Source: Roseateles sp.
GTDB taxonomy: Bacteria > Pseudomonadota > Gammaproteobacteria > Burkholderiales > Burkholderiaceae_C
DNA length: 64,000 bases
Assembly: GCA_015657635.1 (NCBI GenBank)
Contig: JACDQM010000128.1
Span: 1 to 64,000 of the forward strand
Direction: 5' to 3'
Notes under the pieces: generated by a model
Database searches by the model: none
Seen by the model: the letters and a program-made list of their open reading frames with translations, nothing else
Told to the model about the DNA's origin: nothing
In this document: positions 13,752 to 20,522 of the stretch, piece after piece
Layout of the letters: each line of letters opens with the position of its first letter
How positions within the stretch are numbered: the first letter of the stretch is position 1
Program-made: the position numbers and the translations under genes

Positions 13752-15380
13752 ATGCGCGTGATGGAAAGCGGCCTGGACAACGCCAGCGCCCTCATCATCG
13801 ACAGCAATGCCAGTTCGCGCAGCTTGCTGGCGGCCCAGTTGCGCGAACTGGGCGTCGCCAGCGTGCGGCAAACCACGCGCGTGCGAGATGCGCGGGTCAT
13901 CCTGGAGCACACCGCCTACGACATCGTGCTGTGCGACTACCACTTCGATGGCAGCGAACTGTCTGGCCAGGACCTGCTCGATGAGTTGCGCCGCGAGCAA
14001 TTGCTGCCCTATTCCACCGTCTTCGTGATGGTGACGGGCGAGGCCTCGTACTCGGCCGTGGCCGAGGCGGCGGAGGCCGCGCTCGACGCCTACCTGATCA
14101 AGCCCTACACCTCCGCCTCACTGTCGGACCGGCTGGCGCATGCCCGTCAGCGCAAGCGCATCCTGAAGAACATCTTCGATGCAATCGAGGCCCAGGACTT
14201 CGAGACCGCAGCCAATCTGTGCCTGAAGCGCTTCGAGGAAAAGGGCAAGTACTGGCTCTATGCCGCGCGCATCGGCGCCGAGCTCATGTTGCGGCTGAAT
14301 CGCCATGCCGATGCCCGCACCCTCTACGAAGCCATCATCGAGGCGCGCACCGTGCCTTGGGCCAGGCTGGGTGTGGCCCGCAGCGAACTGGCGGCCGGCA
14401 ACACCACCGCCGCGCGTCGCACGCTGGAAACGCTGATCGGCGAGGTGCCCGACTACGCGGACTCCTATGACGTGATGGGCCGCATGCAGATGGACCAGGG
14501 CGAGATCGCCGAGGCGCTGGCCACCTACCGCATCGCCACCAAGCTGACTCCGGGATGCCTGCTGCGCGGTCAGCGGGCTGGCACGCTCGCCTTCTACATG
14601 GGCGAGCGCGCCGAGGCGCTGAAGTTGCTTGAGAGCACCATGGCCAACGGCCTGCGCTCCAAGCTCTTCGACATGCTGACCCTGGTGCTGATCGGCCTGA
14701 TGCGCTTCGACGCCCGCGACAGCAAAGGGCTACGCTATGCGCACGAGTCCATGCTGCAAGAGATCGAGCGCCAGCCCGACTCAGCACGGATCCGGCGCTT
14801 CGGCTTGGTCTTCCAAGGCTTGCGAGGCCTCAGCGAGCACAAGATCGCCAGCGCTCTCGAAGCGGCGCGCAAACTCAGCGCCGAGTTCGACGCGCCGGAC
14901 TTCGACCTCGAAGCTGCGAGCTTGCTGCTCGGCTTGTGGATCCGCCTGGCGCGCCAGGCCATCCAGCTGGATGAGATGGACTCGCTGCTGAAGAAGATGG
15001 GGCTGCGCTACTGCACCACCAAGTCCAGCACCGAGATCCTGATCGCCATGACCGAGGGCAACGAGGAAGCATCGACCAGCCTGCGCGATAGCCATGTGCA
15101 AGTCTTCGGCATCGCCGAGACGGCGATGCGCCACTCGATGCGAGGCGGCGCCGAAACCGCGGTGCGTCTACTGATCGAGCAAGGCGAGCAGACGCGTAAC
15201 GCCAAGCTGATCGATATGGCCAGCCTGGTGCTCAAGCGCCACCACGACAAGATCGCGCACGCCGACGAACTGCAAAGCAAAGTCGTCGAGTTGCAGGAGC
15301 TTCATGTGCTGCCGCTAGGCGGTGCCGCGACCCGTATCGGCCAAACCCGGGCCGCAGGCGGACTGGCGCTGCGGACCTGA
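13752..15380 (+). CDS. response regulator receiver protein with helical-repeat (TPR-like) C-terminus
   Basis: The 542-residue protein starts with a CheY-like receiver domain. It shows D17 in the acidic pocket, phospho-acceptor D62 in VLCDYHFDGSEL, T95 in MVTGEASYS and K117 in LIKPYT. There is no DNA-binding or enzyme output. Residues 135-520 are a long all-helical region with repeat-like segments (ANLCLKRFEEKGKYWLYAAR, ARLGVARSELAAGNTTAARR, DSYDVMGRMQMDQGEIAEAL) that read as tetratricopeptide repeats in their first third. It may therefore signal through protein contacts. GGAG lies 5 bases before the ATG. No sensor kinase is adjacent. Proteins of this build are known in proteobacteria, but I cannot name a process for it. 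Confidence 0.85.
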   Translation: MRVMESGLDNASALIIDSNASSRSLLAAQLRELGVASVRQTTRVRDARVILEHTAYDIVLCDYHFDGSELSGQDLLDELRREQLLPYSTVFVMVTGEASYSAVAEAAEAALDAYLIKPYTSASLSDRLAHARQRKRILKNIFDAIEAQDFETAANLCLKRFEEKGKYWLYAARIGAELMLRLNRHADARTLYEAIIEARTVPWARLGVARSELAAGNTTAARRTLETLIGEVPDYADSYDVMGRMQMDQGEIAEALATYRIATKLTPGCLLRGQRAGTLAFYMGERAEALKLLESTMANGLRSKLFDMLTLVLIGLMRFDARDSKGLRYAHESMLQEIERQPDSARIRRFGLVFQGLRGLSEHKIASALEAARKLSAEFDAPDFDLEAASLLLGLWIRLARQAIQLDEMDSLLKKMGLRYCTTKSSTEILIAMTEGNEEASTSLRDSHVQVFGIAETAMRHSMRGGAETAVRLLIEQGEQTRNAKLIDMASLVLKRHHDKIAHADELQSKVVELQELHVLPLGGAATRIGQTRAAGGLALRT

Positions 15381-15458: not shown

Positions 15459-16592
15459 TCAGAACAGTTCGCCCTGCTCCGCCACAGCGCCGGGTCGACG
15501 GAACTGGCTGAGATCCAGCTCGACTCGCTGCCGATTCAGGCCGAAGCGCGCGCAGGCCTTGCGCATGCGCTGCGACATGAGCTCGGCCCACAAACCCTCG
15601 CCCCGCATTCGCGAGCCGAAGCGCGGATCGTTGTCGCGACCGCCGCGCAGATCATGCAGCCTTGCCATCACACGCTCAGCCTTGTCTGGCGCGTGCTGCT
15701 GCAACCAGTCCTTGAACAGCGGACTCACCTCCCAAGGCAGTCGCAGCGGAATGCTGAAAGCCGATCGGGCCCCGGCCTCAGCGGCAGCTTCAAGAATGCG
15801 TTCGAGCTCGGGCTCGTTCAGGAAGGGAATCAGCGGCGACACGCTGACCCCGACAGGCACGCCGGCCTCGACCAGGGTCTTGATGGTGCGCAGGCGCCGG
15901 TGCGGCGCGGCGGCCCGGGGCTCAAGCGCGCGGGCCAGATGCGGGTCCAGCGTGGTGATCGACACATAGACGGCCGCCTGCTTGCGCGCCGCCATCGGCG
16001 CGATCAGGTCGAGGTCGCGCTCGATGCCGGAAGACTTGGTCACCACCGAAAATGCATGCTCGCATTCGGCCAGCAACTCGACGATGCGGCGCGTGATGCG
16101 CAGCCCCCGTTCCACGGGCTGGTAGGCGTCGGTTGCCGTGCCCAAGCAAAGCAGGCGCGGCTTGTATCCGGGCTTGCTCAAGGCCTCGCGCAGCCGCTCC
16201 GGTGCATTCATCTTGGCGATGATGCGGGTCTCGAAATCGAGGCCGGGTGACATGTTCAGGTAGCTGTGAGTCGGTCGGGCGAAGCAATAAATGCAGCCGT
16301 GCTCACAGCCTCGGTAGGGATTGATGGAAACGTCGAAGCTGATGTCCGGTGACTGGTTGGTCGAGAGGATGGACTTGGCCTGCTCCTCGATGATCTGCGT
16401 CACTGGCGGAAGATGCTCCTCACTCGCCTCTTGCTGCAGCGAACCCCAGCCATCATCGAACTGCTCGCGCAGGTCCTTGCTGAAGCGATGCTTGATGGCC
16501 CAGGCACTGCCGCGACCTTTGAGTGCGTCGGGCCGGACATAGAGCGGCTGGGCCAGGGCCGGATTGGCTTGGGTGCTGGGTTTGACAGGCAT
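15459..16592 (-). CDS. PA0069-family radical SAM protein, SOS-controlled
   Basis: The 377-residue protein has the radical SAM cluster motif CEHGCIYC in NPYRGCEHGCIYCFARPTHS near residue 95, followed by the family's HSYLNMSPGLDFETRI. It belongs to the SplB-like group named after Pseudomonas PA0069. SplB is the spore photoproduct lyase, so a DNA-repair role is possible but unproven for this family. A near-perfect LexA box covers the bases immediately before the start codon. There is no ribosome-binding site, and the likely -10 box (TATAAA within the LexA box) ends about 8 bases before the ATG, so the transcript is probably leaderless. It is divergent from a secreted serine hydrolase. Confidence 0.9.
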   Translation of the reverse strand: MPVKPSTQANPALAQPLYVRPDALKGRGSAWAIKHRFSKDLREQFDDGWGSLQQEASEEHLPPVTQIIEEQAKSILSTNQSPDISFDVSINPYRGCEHGCIYCFARPTHSYLNMSPGLDFETRIIAKMNAPERLREALSKPGYKPRLLCLGTATDAYQPVERGLRITRRIVELLAECEHAFSVVTKSSGIERDLDLIAPMAARKQAAVYVSITTLDPHLARALEPRAAAPHRRLRTIKTLVEAGVPVGVSVSPLIPFLNEPELERILEAAAEAGARSAFSIPLRLPWEVSPLFKDWLQQHAPDKAERVMARLHDLRGGRDNDPRFGSRMRGEGLWAELMSQRMRKACARFGLNRQRVELDLSQFRRPGAVAEQGELF

Positions 16593-16611
16593 ACTGTATT
16601 TTTATACAGCC
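16592..16611. promoter_or_regulatory. LexA (SOS) box at the radical SAM gene start
   Basis: TACTGTATTTTTATACAGCC fits CTGT-N8-ACAG with the AT-rich core expected of a gammaproteobacterial/betaproteobacterial LexA site. It differs from the classical TACTGT-ATATATAT-ACAGTA only in the middle and the last two bases. It covers the probable -10 box and abuts the start codon, a perfect place for repression. Confidence 0.9.
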
Positions 16612-16684: not shown

Positions 16685-18520
16685 ATGAAAAATCGAATCC
16701 TCGCCTGGACAGCATCGGCGCTGCTGGCCATGCAACTGGGCAACGCGCTTGCCAGCCCGCAATTGCCGCCAGCGCGCTTCAGCGATCCGGAGCGCCTCCC
16801 ACGACTGCTGAAGGCGCTGCCGCAGATCGAGCAGATGATGCGCGACCGCATGCAGGACGCGGGCATCCCCGGCCTCGCCTTCGGCATCGTCATCGACGGC
16901 GAGCCAGTGCTGCTGAAGGGCCTGGGCCTGCGCGACCAGGCAGGCCATGCGGTGGATGCCGACACTGTGTTCCGTATCGCTTCAATGACCAAGAGCTTCA
17001 CTGGCCTCGGCATCTTGAAGCTGCGTGACGCGGGCCGCTTGCGCCTCGATGACCCGGTCTCGCTACACCTGCCCGAGCTGGCGCGCTGGCAGGCGCCGAC
17101 GCGTGACTCGGGGCCCATCACCATCCGCCAGTTGCTCGCCCACCTCGGTGGTCTGCCCGAGGACAACCCCTATGGCGACCGCGTCCTCGACATCTCGCCA
17201 CGCGACTTCTCGGCTTGGCTGGCCAAGGGCGTGCCCTTCTCGACGGCGCCGGGCAGCCGCTTCGAGTATTCCAACCTCGGCTTCATGATCCTTGGACAGG
17301 TCATCACGAAGACCTCGGGGCGGCCGTACCAGCAATACATCCGCGAGGAGATCCTGCGACCGCTGGGCATGAAAGCGAGCAGTTGGGACCCGGCCGAGGT
17401 GCCGCGCGAGCAATTGGCCCTGGGCTATCGCAAGGACGGCGACAAGCTCGCGGCGGAGCCGATGCTGGCCGACGGCATGGGCGGCGCCATGGGTGGCCTG
17501 CTGACCAGCGCCCGCGACCTCTCGCGCTATGTGGCGATGATGCTCTCGGCCTTCCCGCCGCGCGACGATGCCGAAACCTCACCCGTGCTACGCCATACGC
17601 TGCGCGAGATGCAGTCCGGCCTCGGCACGCCGGCGATCTCGGCGATGCGCCCGCTGGCAGGCGGTCCGCTGAATGCGCGCGCCCGCAACTACGGCTTCGG
17701 CCTCGGTGCCACCGACGACTGCCGCTGGGGCACCGAGCTCGCCCACTCGGGCGGCCTGCCCGGCTTCGGCTCCCACATGGTGTGGCTACCCGAGCGCGGC
17801 GTCGGCGTGTTCGTGATGGCCAACCTGACCTATGCGCCGGCCGGCGGCCTCGCTCGCCAGGCGCTGCAGCTGCTGCTCGACACCGGCGCGCTGCAGGCTC
17901 GAGAGGCCCAGCCCTCGCCCGCCTTGCTGCGCGTTGCTGAAGAAACGGCAAGCCTGGTCGACCACTGGAGCGACGCACGAGCCGAGGCCCTGGCGGCCTT
18001 CAACCTTTTCCTCGACCGCCCGCTGGGCAAGCGCCGCAGCGAGATTGCTGCCCTGCGCGAAGGCATGGGCAGCTGCAAGTTCGGATCGTTCAAGGCCCAG
18101 AACGCAATGCGCGGCAAGCTGCGCATCGCCTGCGAGCAGGGTTGGATCGATGCAACGATGATGCTCGCACCGACCGATCCACCGCTGATCCAGCACCTGG
18201 ACATGCAGGCCACGCGGTCGGCTTCGGGTGAGCTCATCGAACTGGCCCGTGCACTGACCCGCGCGCACGCCAACGGCGGCAATGATCTGCGCCTGGCGCC
18301 CGCGCTGCGCCGCGCCGACCTGGCCATTGCCATGCAGGCGAATCATCAGGTGCATGGGGCCTGCACGGTGGGCGAGCAGATCAGTGGAGACGGCAAGACC
18401 GGAGCGCGCTTCAAGCTGGCCTGCGAGCGCGGCGGCGCCGAGCTGAGCCTGGGCGTCGAGTCCGGGCGGCTGAGCCGGGCCCGCTTCAGCGAGCCCGACG
18501 GCGGCAGCTGCATGCCCTGA
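16685..18520 (+). CDS. secreted serine hydrolase, class C beta-lactamase/DD-peptidase fold
   Basis: The 611-residue protein begins with a signal peptide (MKNRILAWTASALLAMQLGN, cut near ALAS). The serine-hydrolase fold shows the nucleophile motif SMTK (S100-K103), YSN (195-197) and HSGG near residue 355 in place of the KTG box, the pattern of beta-lactamase-family esterases and D-aminopeptidases. Residues from about 400 to 611 form an extra C-terminal domain with five cysteines (GSCKFGS, IACEQG, GACTVG, LACERG, GSCMP) that I do not recognise. Substrate is unknown: peptide, ester or cell-wall fragment. Its start is 93 bases from the divergent radical SAM gene, so the LexA box may touch its promoter too, but no -10 or -35 is obvious. 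Confidence 0.87.
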   Translation: MKNRILAWTASALLAMQLGNALASPQLPPARFSDPERLPRLLKALPQIEQMMRDRMQDAGIPGLAFGIVIDGEPVLLKGLGLRDQAGHAVDADTVFRIASMTKSFTGLGILKLRDAGRLRLDDPVSLHLPELARWQAPTRDSGPITIRQLLAHLGGLPEDNPYGDRVLDISPRDFSAWLAKGVPFSTAPGSRFEYSNLGFMILGQVITKTSGRPYQQYIREEILRPLGMKASSWDPAEVPREQLALGYRKDGDKLAAEPMLADGMGGAMGGLLTSARDLSRYVAMMLSAFPPRDDAETSPVLRHTLREMQSGLGTPAISAMRPLAGGPLNARARNYGFGLGATDDCRWGTELAHSGGLPGFGSHMVWLPERGVGVFVMANLTYAPAGGLARQALQLLLDTGALQAREAQPSPALLRVAEETASLVDHWSDARAEALAAFNLFLDRPLGKRRSEIAALREGMGSCKFGSFKAQNAMRGKLRIACEQGWIDATMMLAPTDPPLIQHLDMQATRSASGELIELARALTRAHANGGNDLRLAPALRRADLAIAMQANHQVHGACTVGEQISGDGKTGARFKLACERGGAELSLGVESGRLSRARFSEPDGGSCMP

Positions 18521-18538: not shown

Positions 18539-20497
18539 TTAGGTTAGCAAGCCTGCTTCAACCAGGAAACGCGACGGCAATTGCGGATCGAAGCTGATCG
18601 TCAGGCGCTGGCGCGCCCGCGTCATCGCCACGTAGAGCAGGTTGCGATTTTCGGCAGCGCCGGTCTCGCCGACGAACTCGCCCCGGCTGAGGTGCGGGAT
18701 CACAACATGGTCGAACTCCAGGCCCTTGGCGGCCTCGATGCTGGACAGCGTCACGCGCGGCTGCCCCCGCTGGCGTTGCTGCAAATGGGCCAGCGCATGC
18801 AGCAGCTGGAAGGCGTCGGCCACGCTGGTGTCCTCGGCCAGCACCAGTTGCACCAGCTGGGCGATGTTGTCACGCACCTGCAAGATGTCCTCGCGGCGGA
18901 CCAGCACGGCGCGCGCCAGCCCTGCCGGATCGAGCGCCTGCATGAAGCCCTGCGAGAAGGCGCGCAGGCCGCCGCTGCGGAGCAGTTCCATCGCCGCCTG
19001 CAAGCGGGGCAAGGCAAAGGCCGAGGCCGTGCGCAGCACCTGGTTGGCGATGAAGTCGCGCATGCCATCAGGCGGTGCGGCCGCCTCTTCAATCGCGCGG
19101 CGCTGCGCGGTCACTGCATCGACATGGCGCAGCTCGGTGCTGTCGATCCAGGCGCCACTGAACAGCATCAAGGCCTCCAGCACCTGGGCGCGTTGCGCCT
19201 TGTCGGCAAAGCCCGAGTAATCGTCGACGCTGAAGGCCTGCAGACCACGCACCAGCAGCACCTCACGGCGTTGCAGAAAGGGTCGCAGGTCTTGCATCGC
19301 GTAGGCAATGCCCAGTTTCAAAAGCTCTCGCTCGATCAGCACGGACTGAGAAGGCCGGCGCAGCAGCAGGCGCAGCTCCTGATGCTCAGACTGGGCAAGA
19401 TGTTCCTGCGCCAGCCGCGCCATCAGCTGGGCTTGCAGCGCAGTGGATTCGGCCGGCAGCAAGCGGACCTCGGTGGCACGCGCACCCGCCACCGCATAGG
19501 GCTTGCGGGCCAGCGCTCCAGCGGCCTCGGCGAGCGCTGCACCAAAGCGATGACTGGCCGTCAGCGGCAGGCGCAGCGGCGGGCCGATCTCGCGCTCGAA
19601 ATGCTCGCCCATGAAACCGGCCTCGGCGGCGGCCTGCGAATGGATGACCTGGTCACGGTCGCCAACGCCGACAAAGGCAGCGCGGCGGTTGTGCTGCAAC
19701 AGCGCCTTCAGCACGGTGAACATCGCACGGTTGGTGTCGTGCATTTCGTCGACAACGACCAGGGCCAGGCCGAGATCCAGCGGCGAGGCATCGACCGTTG
19801 CCAGACCCTCTTCGCTGAGCAAGGTGCGAGCCAGGTCATAGCAGGCATCGCCTTCATAGCGGAAGGCTGGATGGTCCGGATGCCCGCCCCGGCGTATCGC
19901 CTCGTAGGCGCCGCGCACACGCAGCGTGAAGTAGTCGCAGAGCAGGTCCTCGGCCTGCGCGGGGCTGGCCGTGCCCTCCCAGGCTTGCTGCTCGATGCGC
20001 AGTCCACCCTTGAGCACGGCGAAGGATTGCAGCAGCCCTTCGACCAGAGCCTCGGACGGCGCGGTCACGGCCAGTTCGTCTGGATAGCGCTCGTCGGGCC
20101 AGCTCTGCGCTCGCTCGATGGCGCGCAGCACGTAGGGCCGCACCTGCTCCAGGCTGCTCAATTGCTGGACACCAGGGCCTTCGATAGCCTTCAAGACCTC
20201 GGCGCTGAAGGACTCGAACGTGTGGATGCGCAGCGCCGCGATCTGCGCGGGCTCGACGCCGATCAGGCGCAGCTGCGTCTGCAGGGCCTGGACAGCCGGC
20301 GCCGTGTAGGTCAGCGCCAGCACCATCGCGGGGCTGGCGCCGCGCTGCAGGGCCTGGGCGATCCGCAGGGCCAGCGAGGTGGTCTTGGCCGCACCGGCAT
20401 TGGCCTCGATCAGCAGGTGGCGCGCGCGCGTGGTCTGGATGAGCAGCTGCTCGCTGCTCGGGCGTATCGCCGCGGAGACAAAGACGGTGTCGGACAT
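18539..20497 (-). CDS. UvrD/Rep-like superfamily I helicase with altered Walker A
   Basis: The 652-residue protein carries the SF1 motif series: motif I EANAGAAKTT (31-40), motif Ia LALTYTAPAVQALQ, motif II VVVDEMHD (D250, E251), motif III VGVGDRDQVIHS, motif V SSIEAAKGLEFDHVVIP and motif VI LLYVAMTRARQRL. Motif I has alanine where almost all UvrD proteins have glycine (GxGKT), while the lysine and threonine remain. The DNA-binding 2B domain is short, so the protein is smaller than UvrD (about 720). GTG at 20500 and ATG at 20497 are adjacent starts and I use ATG. It lies 25 bases behind dnaB and probably shares its transcript. DNA repair or restart is the likely area; the exact job is not known. 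Confidence 0.85.
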   Translation of the reverse strand: MSDTVFVSAAIRPSSEQLLIQTTRARHLLIEANAGAAKTTSLALRIAQALQRGASPAMVLALTYTAPAVQALQTQLRLIGVEPAQIAALRIHTFESFSAEVLKAIEGPGVQQLSSLEQVRPYVLRAIERAQSWPDERYPDELAVTAPSEALVEGLLQSFAVLKGGLRIEQQAWEGTASPAQAEDLLCDYFTLRVRGAYEAIRRGGHPDHPAFRYEGDACYDLARTLLSEEGLATVDASPLDLGLALVVVDEMHDTNRAMFTVLKALLQHNRRAAFVGVGDRDQVIHSQAAAEAGFMGEHFEREIGPPLRLPLTASHRFGAALAEAAGALARKPYAVAGARATEVRLLPAESTALQAQLMARLAQEHLAQSEHQELRLLLRRPSQSVLIERELLKLGIAYAMQDLRPFLQRREVLLVRGLQAFSVDDYSGFADKAQRAQVLEALMLFSGAWIDSTELRHVDAVTAQRRAIEEAAAPPDGMRDFIANQVLRTASAFALPRLQAAMELLRSGGLRAFSQGFMQALDPAGLARAVLVRREDILQVRDNIAQLVQLVLAEDTSVADAFQLLHALAHLQQRQRGQPRVTLSSIEAAKGLEFDHVVIPHLSRGEFVGETGAAENRNLLYVAMTRARQRLTISFDPQLPSRFLVEAGLLT

Positions 20498-20522
20498 CAC
20501 TGCGTCCAGAGGGCGCAGTCCA

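Follow-up and report, generated by a model that had tools for sequence, protein, structure and literature searches.

A LexA box on the start of a PA0069-family radical SAM gene whose predicted fold resembles spore photoproduct lyase

The window analysed here, a stretch of 64,000 nucleotides from a Roseateles sp. contig, contains a radical SAM gene, a divergent serine hydrolase gene and a LexA box that reaches the start codon of the former (Table 1). The radical SAM protein scored 458.2 bits against NF033668 over residues 25-377 (curated cut-off 360) and matched PF04055 with an E-value of 2.8e-15, so that it belongs to the PA0069 family and to the radical SAM superfamily. NF033668 is a 'hypoth_equivalog' of NCBIfam; we found no difference between the window protein and the other members, and the family name gives no function. 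The CxxxCxxC motif was invariant across the 128 family members that we aligned. The AlphaFold2 model of the window protein was confident (pLDDT 91.7, pTM 0.89), and Pfam recognised no DNA-binding domain in the window protein or in the scanned relatives. PA0069 of P. aeruginosa itself is presumably a member of the LexA regulon.

Table 1. Features at the radical SAM locus of the window
Feature	Position	Strand	Basis or remark
Response regulator with TPR repeats	13752-15380	+	downstream of the radical SAM gene
PA0069-family radical SAM protein, 377 aa	15459..16592	-	NF033668, PF04055; cluster cysteines C96, C100, C103
LexA (SOS) box, TACTGTATTTTTATACAGCC	16592..16611	.	overlaps the radical SAM start codon by one base
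Possible -10 hexamer TATAAA in the box	16601..16606	-	by eye
Serine hydrolase (beta-lactamase fold), divergent	16685..18520	+	PF00144 (Pfam); may share the operator
UvrD-like helicase gene	18539-20500	-	beyond the hydrolase

The first-pass annotation had described a nearly ideal SOS box directly on the start of a PA0069-family gene, and both the family assignment and the box hold: the site is an exact CTGTN8ACAG before the gene, in a putative promoter, and position 16592 is at once its end and the A of the ATG. No other exact CTGTN8ACAG than its core, CTGTATTTTTATACAG (16594-16609), occurs in the 64-kb window. When one mismatch was allowed, the window contained 10 matches compared with a mean of 20.5 in shuffled sequence, i.e. 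fewer than expected, so that only the exact site counts. In the whole genome (4.6 Mb in 191 contigs) the exact pattern occurred 20 times and the reversed control pattern 17 times. We scored 15 of these 20 sites, the other five having no locus, with a matrix made from 15 E. coli sites, and the box of the window came out on top (22.5). The recA gene of the same genome has one box (18.6), and lexA, whose product was recognised with 232 bits, has a tandem pair (17.8 and 16.9), indicating that this genome possesses a LexA system with a CTGT operator. We consider the radical SAM gene to be almost certainly under LexA control. A strong LexA box (20.2) was also present at an integron integrase-like gene of the same genome (contig C127 of G000; positions 1499-1518 of locus L014), the reading frame of which looks interrupted.

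The distance from the box to the ATG in the window is too short for any ribosome-binding site, and the TATAAA hexamer within the box would put the RNA start near the ATG. Read by eye, these two features point to an mRNA that would be leaderless or nearly leaderless, with the operator lying over its start. Among 15 relatives whose starts we inspected, the ATG had an identical offset from the box in eight (L217, L218, L219, L220, L221, L222, L224 and L275), all of them near relatives of the window gene; one (L216) had no good box and the remaining six start further down. In the genes from Burkholderia, Caballeronia and Pseudomonas (L228, L234, L274, L282) the start lies 34-51 bases past the start of the box. 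One of the eight loci with the identical offset, L224, comes from a metagenome-assembled genome titled Myxococcales; its gene is 68% identical and has a CTGT box, and the locus is perhaps mis-binned betaproteobacterial DNA.

NF033668 was present in 102 of 274 genomes of a sample of the class (89 over the cut-off) and in 177 of 398 genomes of a sample of the phylum (171 over the cut-off). We surveyed the upstream DNA of 89 class loci (one of which, L105, had no upstream DNA), of 70 loci from other classes of the phylum, chosen from 112 over the cut-off as the 30 best-scoring and 40 picked by hand, and of 35 further beta- and gammaproteobacterial loci, which were hand-picked, with several from one family, and which make 42 of 59 together with 7 from the class sample. 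Judging from their origin (same phylum, other class) and from their type of box, the 70 loci are probably alphaproteobacterial. The first-pass annotation had proposed to look for LexA boxes before PA0069 homologues across proteobacteria, and such boxes were indeed there: the alphaproteobacterial operator GTTCN7GTTC in 63 of the 70 other-class loci (0.98 expected from shuffles), a CTGT box in 27 of the 35 beta/gamma loci (0.2 expected) and a CTGT box scoring above 11, always near the start, in 13 of the 89 class loci with the window included (0.28 expected). Thus the box is kept before orthologues, but in the even class sample it is absent from 75 of the 88 loci with upstream DNA; the CTGT scores in this sample were bimodal. 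In control tiles from the same loci, CTGT-type matches numbered 4 in 371 (class set) and 1 in 440 (beta/gamma set), and GTTC-type matches 4 in 726 (other-class set).

We also examined the best 80 of 564 named loci, a selection that leans to near relatives and in which the classes were assigned from the record titles. Sixty of these 80 had a box, 47 of the CTGT and 13 of the GTTC type; by group, a box was found in 41 of 47 betaproteobacteria, 4 of 4 Pseudomonas and 10 of 14 alphaproteobacteria, while none of the six Xanthomonadales among them had a CTGT, GTTC or TTAGTA-type box, the last being the motif presumed for the LexA of Xanthomonadales. In GC-rich tiles of the non-alphaproteobacterial sets, chance GTTC-type matches amounted to 6/371, 7/440 and 17/1252, the last compared with 2/1252 for the CTGT type, so that among the named loci a lone GTTC box counts for less than a CTGT box. 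All four further alphaproteobacterial plasmid records had a GTTC box, and one Aeromonas record had a CTGT box. Along a FastTree phylogeny with 276 rows the type of box changed at least 22 times, compared with a mean of 127 and a minimum of 115 after shuffling, indicating that it is inherited along the tree. The alphaproteobacterial type of box, GTTCN7GTTC, also stands before the PA0069-family gene of L272, a record titled Mycobacterium sp. KBS0706, in which either the organism name or the contig may be mistaken.

Is the box missing from the radical SAM gene where the LexA system itself uses no such operator? We compared recA in 12 genomes of the class sample with a box at the radical SAM gene (the genome of the window was left out) and in 18 without, two of which had no usable recA. 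A recA box was present in 8 of the 12 but in only 1 of the remaining 16 (Fisher p 0.0012; as the recA start was misplaced in G121 and G028, the latter count is 1/14 at best). In the four other box-bearing genomes (G128, G171, G155 and G266) no recA box was found in the 330 nt examined. As box-less radical SAM genes go together with box-less recA in this comparison of CTGT operators, it seems that the radical SAM gene does not escape the LexA system of its host but goes along with it.

A Foldseek search with the model placed six entries of spore photoproduct lyase on top (4FHC, 4FHE, 4FHF, 4FHG, 4K9R and 4RH0). With VIA-align 2 these entries gave Z 19.2-19.6 and rmsd 3.0-3.6 over 257-267 aligned residues; 4fhf was the best (Z 19.6, rmsd 3.2, 264 aligned), and the next entry had a Z of 14.9. 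The relation of the fold to SplB that the first-pass annotation had suggested is thus borne out for the predicted model. Below the lyase came radical SAM enzymes that act on peptides, proteins and cofactors (Z about 14-15), and RlmN, which acts on RNA, ranked 30th; in a viral structure library the best match carries no name. By sequence alone, no lyase came up in the PDB even at E-values up to 10. A profile comparison with seven lyase-family proteins, which stem from four genomes of one genus, gave 96.7% and an E-value of 4e-10. L298, the one of L298-L300 that was scanned by NCBIfam, scored 282 against TIGR04070 (cut-off 400), and L302 was nearer to TIGR03886. PF20903 was found in 4 of 200 proteobacterial genomes, all of one genus, and all four also hold a PA0069 gene.

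The window protein shares with spore photoproduct lyase the CxxxCxxC motif and, in the alignment, a tyrosine near the cluster, but it is 14% identical and, at E 0.001, had no match to PF20903 or TIGR04070. Weak PF20903 matches were present in 17 of the 128 family members (best E 9.8e-5), and weak TIGR04070 matches (E 1e-4 to 8e-4) in two of three further PA0069-family proteins that were scanned. The hydrogen donor of the solved lyase is the cysteine C140, and PDB titles name mutants of C140 and of Y98. In the profile alignment, with the cysteine placed through the 4fhc alignment, the donor aligns with T152 of the window protein, and its column contains no cysteine in 128 members (T, A, I, V, G, S, M, Y or P are found instead). 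The only cysteines invariant in the 128 are the three of the cluster. In the column of the lyase Y96 the tyrosine is invariant, whereas the column of Y98 holds F (77) or Y (51).

SOS control of a splB-type gene is already in print and is not new. In PMC3323433 (2012), splB is proposed to be under LexA in alpha- and betaproteobacteria, not in gammaproteobacteria, and is described as photoreactivation and as a homologue of B. subtilis SplB; in contrast, Pseudomonas and other gammaproteobacterial relatives carry the box in our survey. This 'splB' is like the window gene in its type of regulation and in its lineages, and would really be the PA0069 family. PMC8565304 (2021) places splB (COG1533) in LexA-like regulons of Bacteroidetes, PMC3765255 connects SOS operons with radical SAM proteins that are SplB-like, and PMC9380542 reports that vnz_31145 of Streptomyces venezuelae, listed there as a radical SAM protein, rose 19.97-fold after mitomycin C (RNA-seq) and had a LexA ChIP-seq peak of 1.31 with a box at -61. 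The word 'unexplored' in the first-pass annotation was therefore too strong as far as the regulation is concerned, given the proposals of 2012 and 2021 and the LexA-bound Streptomyces gene. Excerpts of PMC8508746 and PMC3925955 add nothing on the gene of the window. In the open-licence literature we found no paper on PA0069 with LexA and SOS, none on 'PA0069 family radical SAM', none on Rv2578c with DNA damage, and none that identifies the splB-like SOS gene of proteobacteria as a PA0069 family without the donor residue.

Could the box serve the divergent serine hydrolase, or be there by chance? The site ends only 74 bases before the hydrolase ATG. However, a tblastn search of the stretches around the relatives' genes (L176-L295) found no hydrolase at E 1e-8, while the box is kept at the radical SAM gene. 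L275, which is the nearest relative by the tree and 72% identical, has the UvrD-like gene directly beside the radical SAM gene, the hydrolase being absent from between them, and the box is present. We therefore ruled out an operator for the hydrolase as the main role of the box; a chance site was ruled out as well, the boxes being far above the expectations from shuffles and tiles. Either explanation is barely credible, and the box, as judged from these comparisons of loci, is that of the radical SAM gene. The other neighbours gave no operon partner that would point to DNA repair: after 34 of 161 loci without an assigned target ORF were dropped, each neighbour family was confined to 13 or fewer of the remaining 127, with crude ORF calling in GC-rich DNA. 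The response regulator was also found nearby in L275, L219, L221, L218 and L216. In nine loci (L146 and eight others) the DNA flanking the radical SAM gene, as far as it was fetched, holds a gene that by eye resembles a uracil-DNA glycosylase.

As to function, we lean slightly towards a LexA-controlled, lyase-like enzyme that would act on DNA damage other than the spore photoproduct. Function cannot be read from the fold alone, as radical SAM enzymes that work on peptides, proteins and RNA have the same core, and SOS regulons include genes other than repair enzymes. The enzyme might be SOS-controlled and act on RNA, on protein or on a small molecule in the damage response. This is rather unlikely: peptide, protein and cofactor enzymes follow the lyase among the structural matches, with RlmN further down, and Pfam recognised no DNA-binding domain, but spore photoproduct lyase, which acts on a DNA lesion, leads the fold comparison by about 5 Z units and the same family stands behind two LexA box sequences in different classes. 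It is still more improbable that the protein is a spore photoproduct lyase in function with another hydrogen donor. The common fold, the weak family matches of some relatives and the tyrosines aligned to Y96 and, in part, Y98 would fit such a role; the window protein itself has no match to the lyase families, the donor cysteine is missing from all 128 members, and the spore photoproduct arises mainly in the DNA of dry spores, a kind of spore that the lineages bearing PA0069 are not known to make.

For a lyase-like enzyme acting on another DNA lesion, the following course can be proposed. LexA bound to the box would cover the putative -10 hexamer and the start codon and shut transcription off, and upon DNA damage the RecA-driven cleavage of LexA would open the promoter, as expected from the box and the general SOS mechanism. 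By analogy with the superfamily, C96, C100 and C103 would hold a [4Fe-4S] cluster and SAM would be cleaved to the 5'-deoxyadenosyl radical. The enzyme would work alone, on the scaffold of spore photoproduct lyase, and most likely abstract a hydrogen from the base or the sugar of a damaged DNA nucleotide, by which the lesion would be reverted or processed. As the lyase donor cysteine is absent, the enzyme should depart from spore photoproduct repair in its lesion or in the quenching of the radical. Seen directly were the box, conserved in two operator spellings, the predicted fold, the cluster motif and the missing donor cysteine, and the regulatory step appears strongly supported by the sequences; induction, DNA as the substrate and reversal of the lesion are what we infer. 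Related to a known DNA-repair enzyme and keeping a damage switch in different spellings in many bacteria, the PA0069-family gene is a good candidate for an undescribed DNA-repair activity. A useful point in itself is that this conserved gene of the SOS response is no genuine lyase, and the name splB has hidden a candidate for a new lesion and a new chemistry.

The nearest other family is that of Rv2578c (NF038135). A Streptomyces member of it scored 242 bits against NF033668, which is under the PA0069 cut-off, and the window protein scored 214 in the Rv2578c family, compared with a cut-off of 430. Tentatively, PA0069 and Rv2578c could form one large SOS-controlled radical SAM group of Proteobacteria and Actinobacteria that reverses or processes a DNA lesion other than the spore photoproduct and quenches without a donor cysteine, i.e. 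a new direct-reversal repair under the name splB. Direct-reversal DNA repair enzymes are few, and a lyase fold without its key residue, behind unrelated LexA boxes in separate lineages, points to an undescribed lesion and chemistry. The motif GAACN4GTTC occurred within 60 nt of the start in two of five actinobacterial loci, a number that weighs little (exact in L296 and L336); L337 had one mismatch, and the motif was not found at L297 or at L335, which is from the same record as L336 and has a guessed start. In L296, from Streptomyces sp. BHT-5-2, the site (2342-2353, GAACATGTGTTC) lies 57 nt before the ATG of the Rv2578c-family gene.
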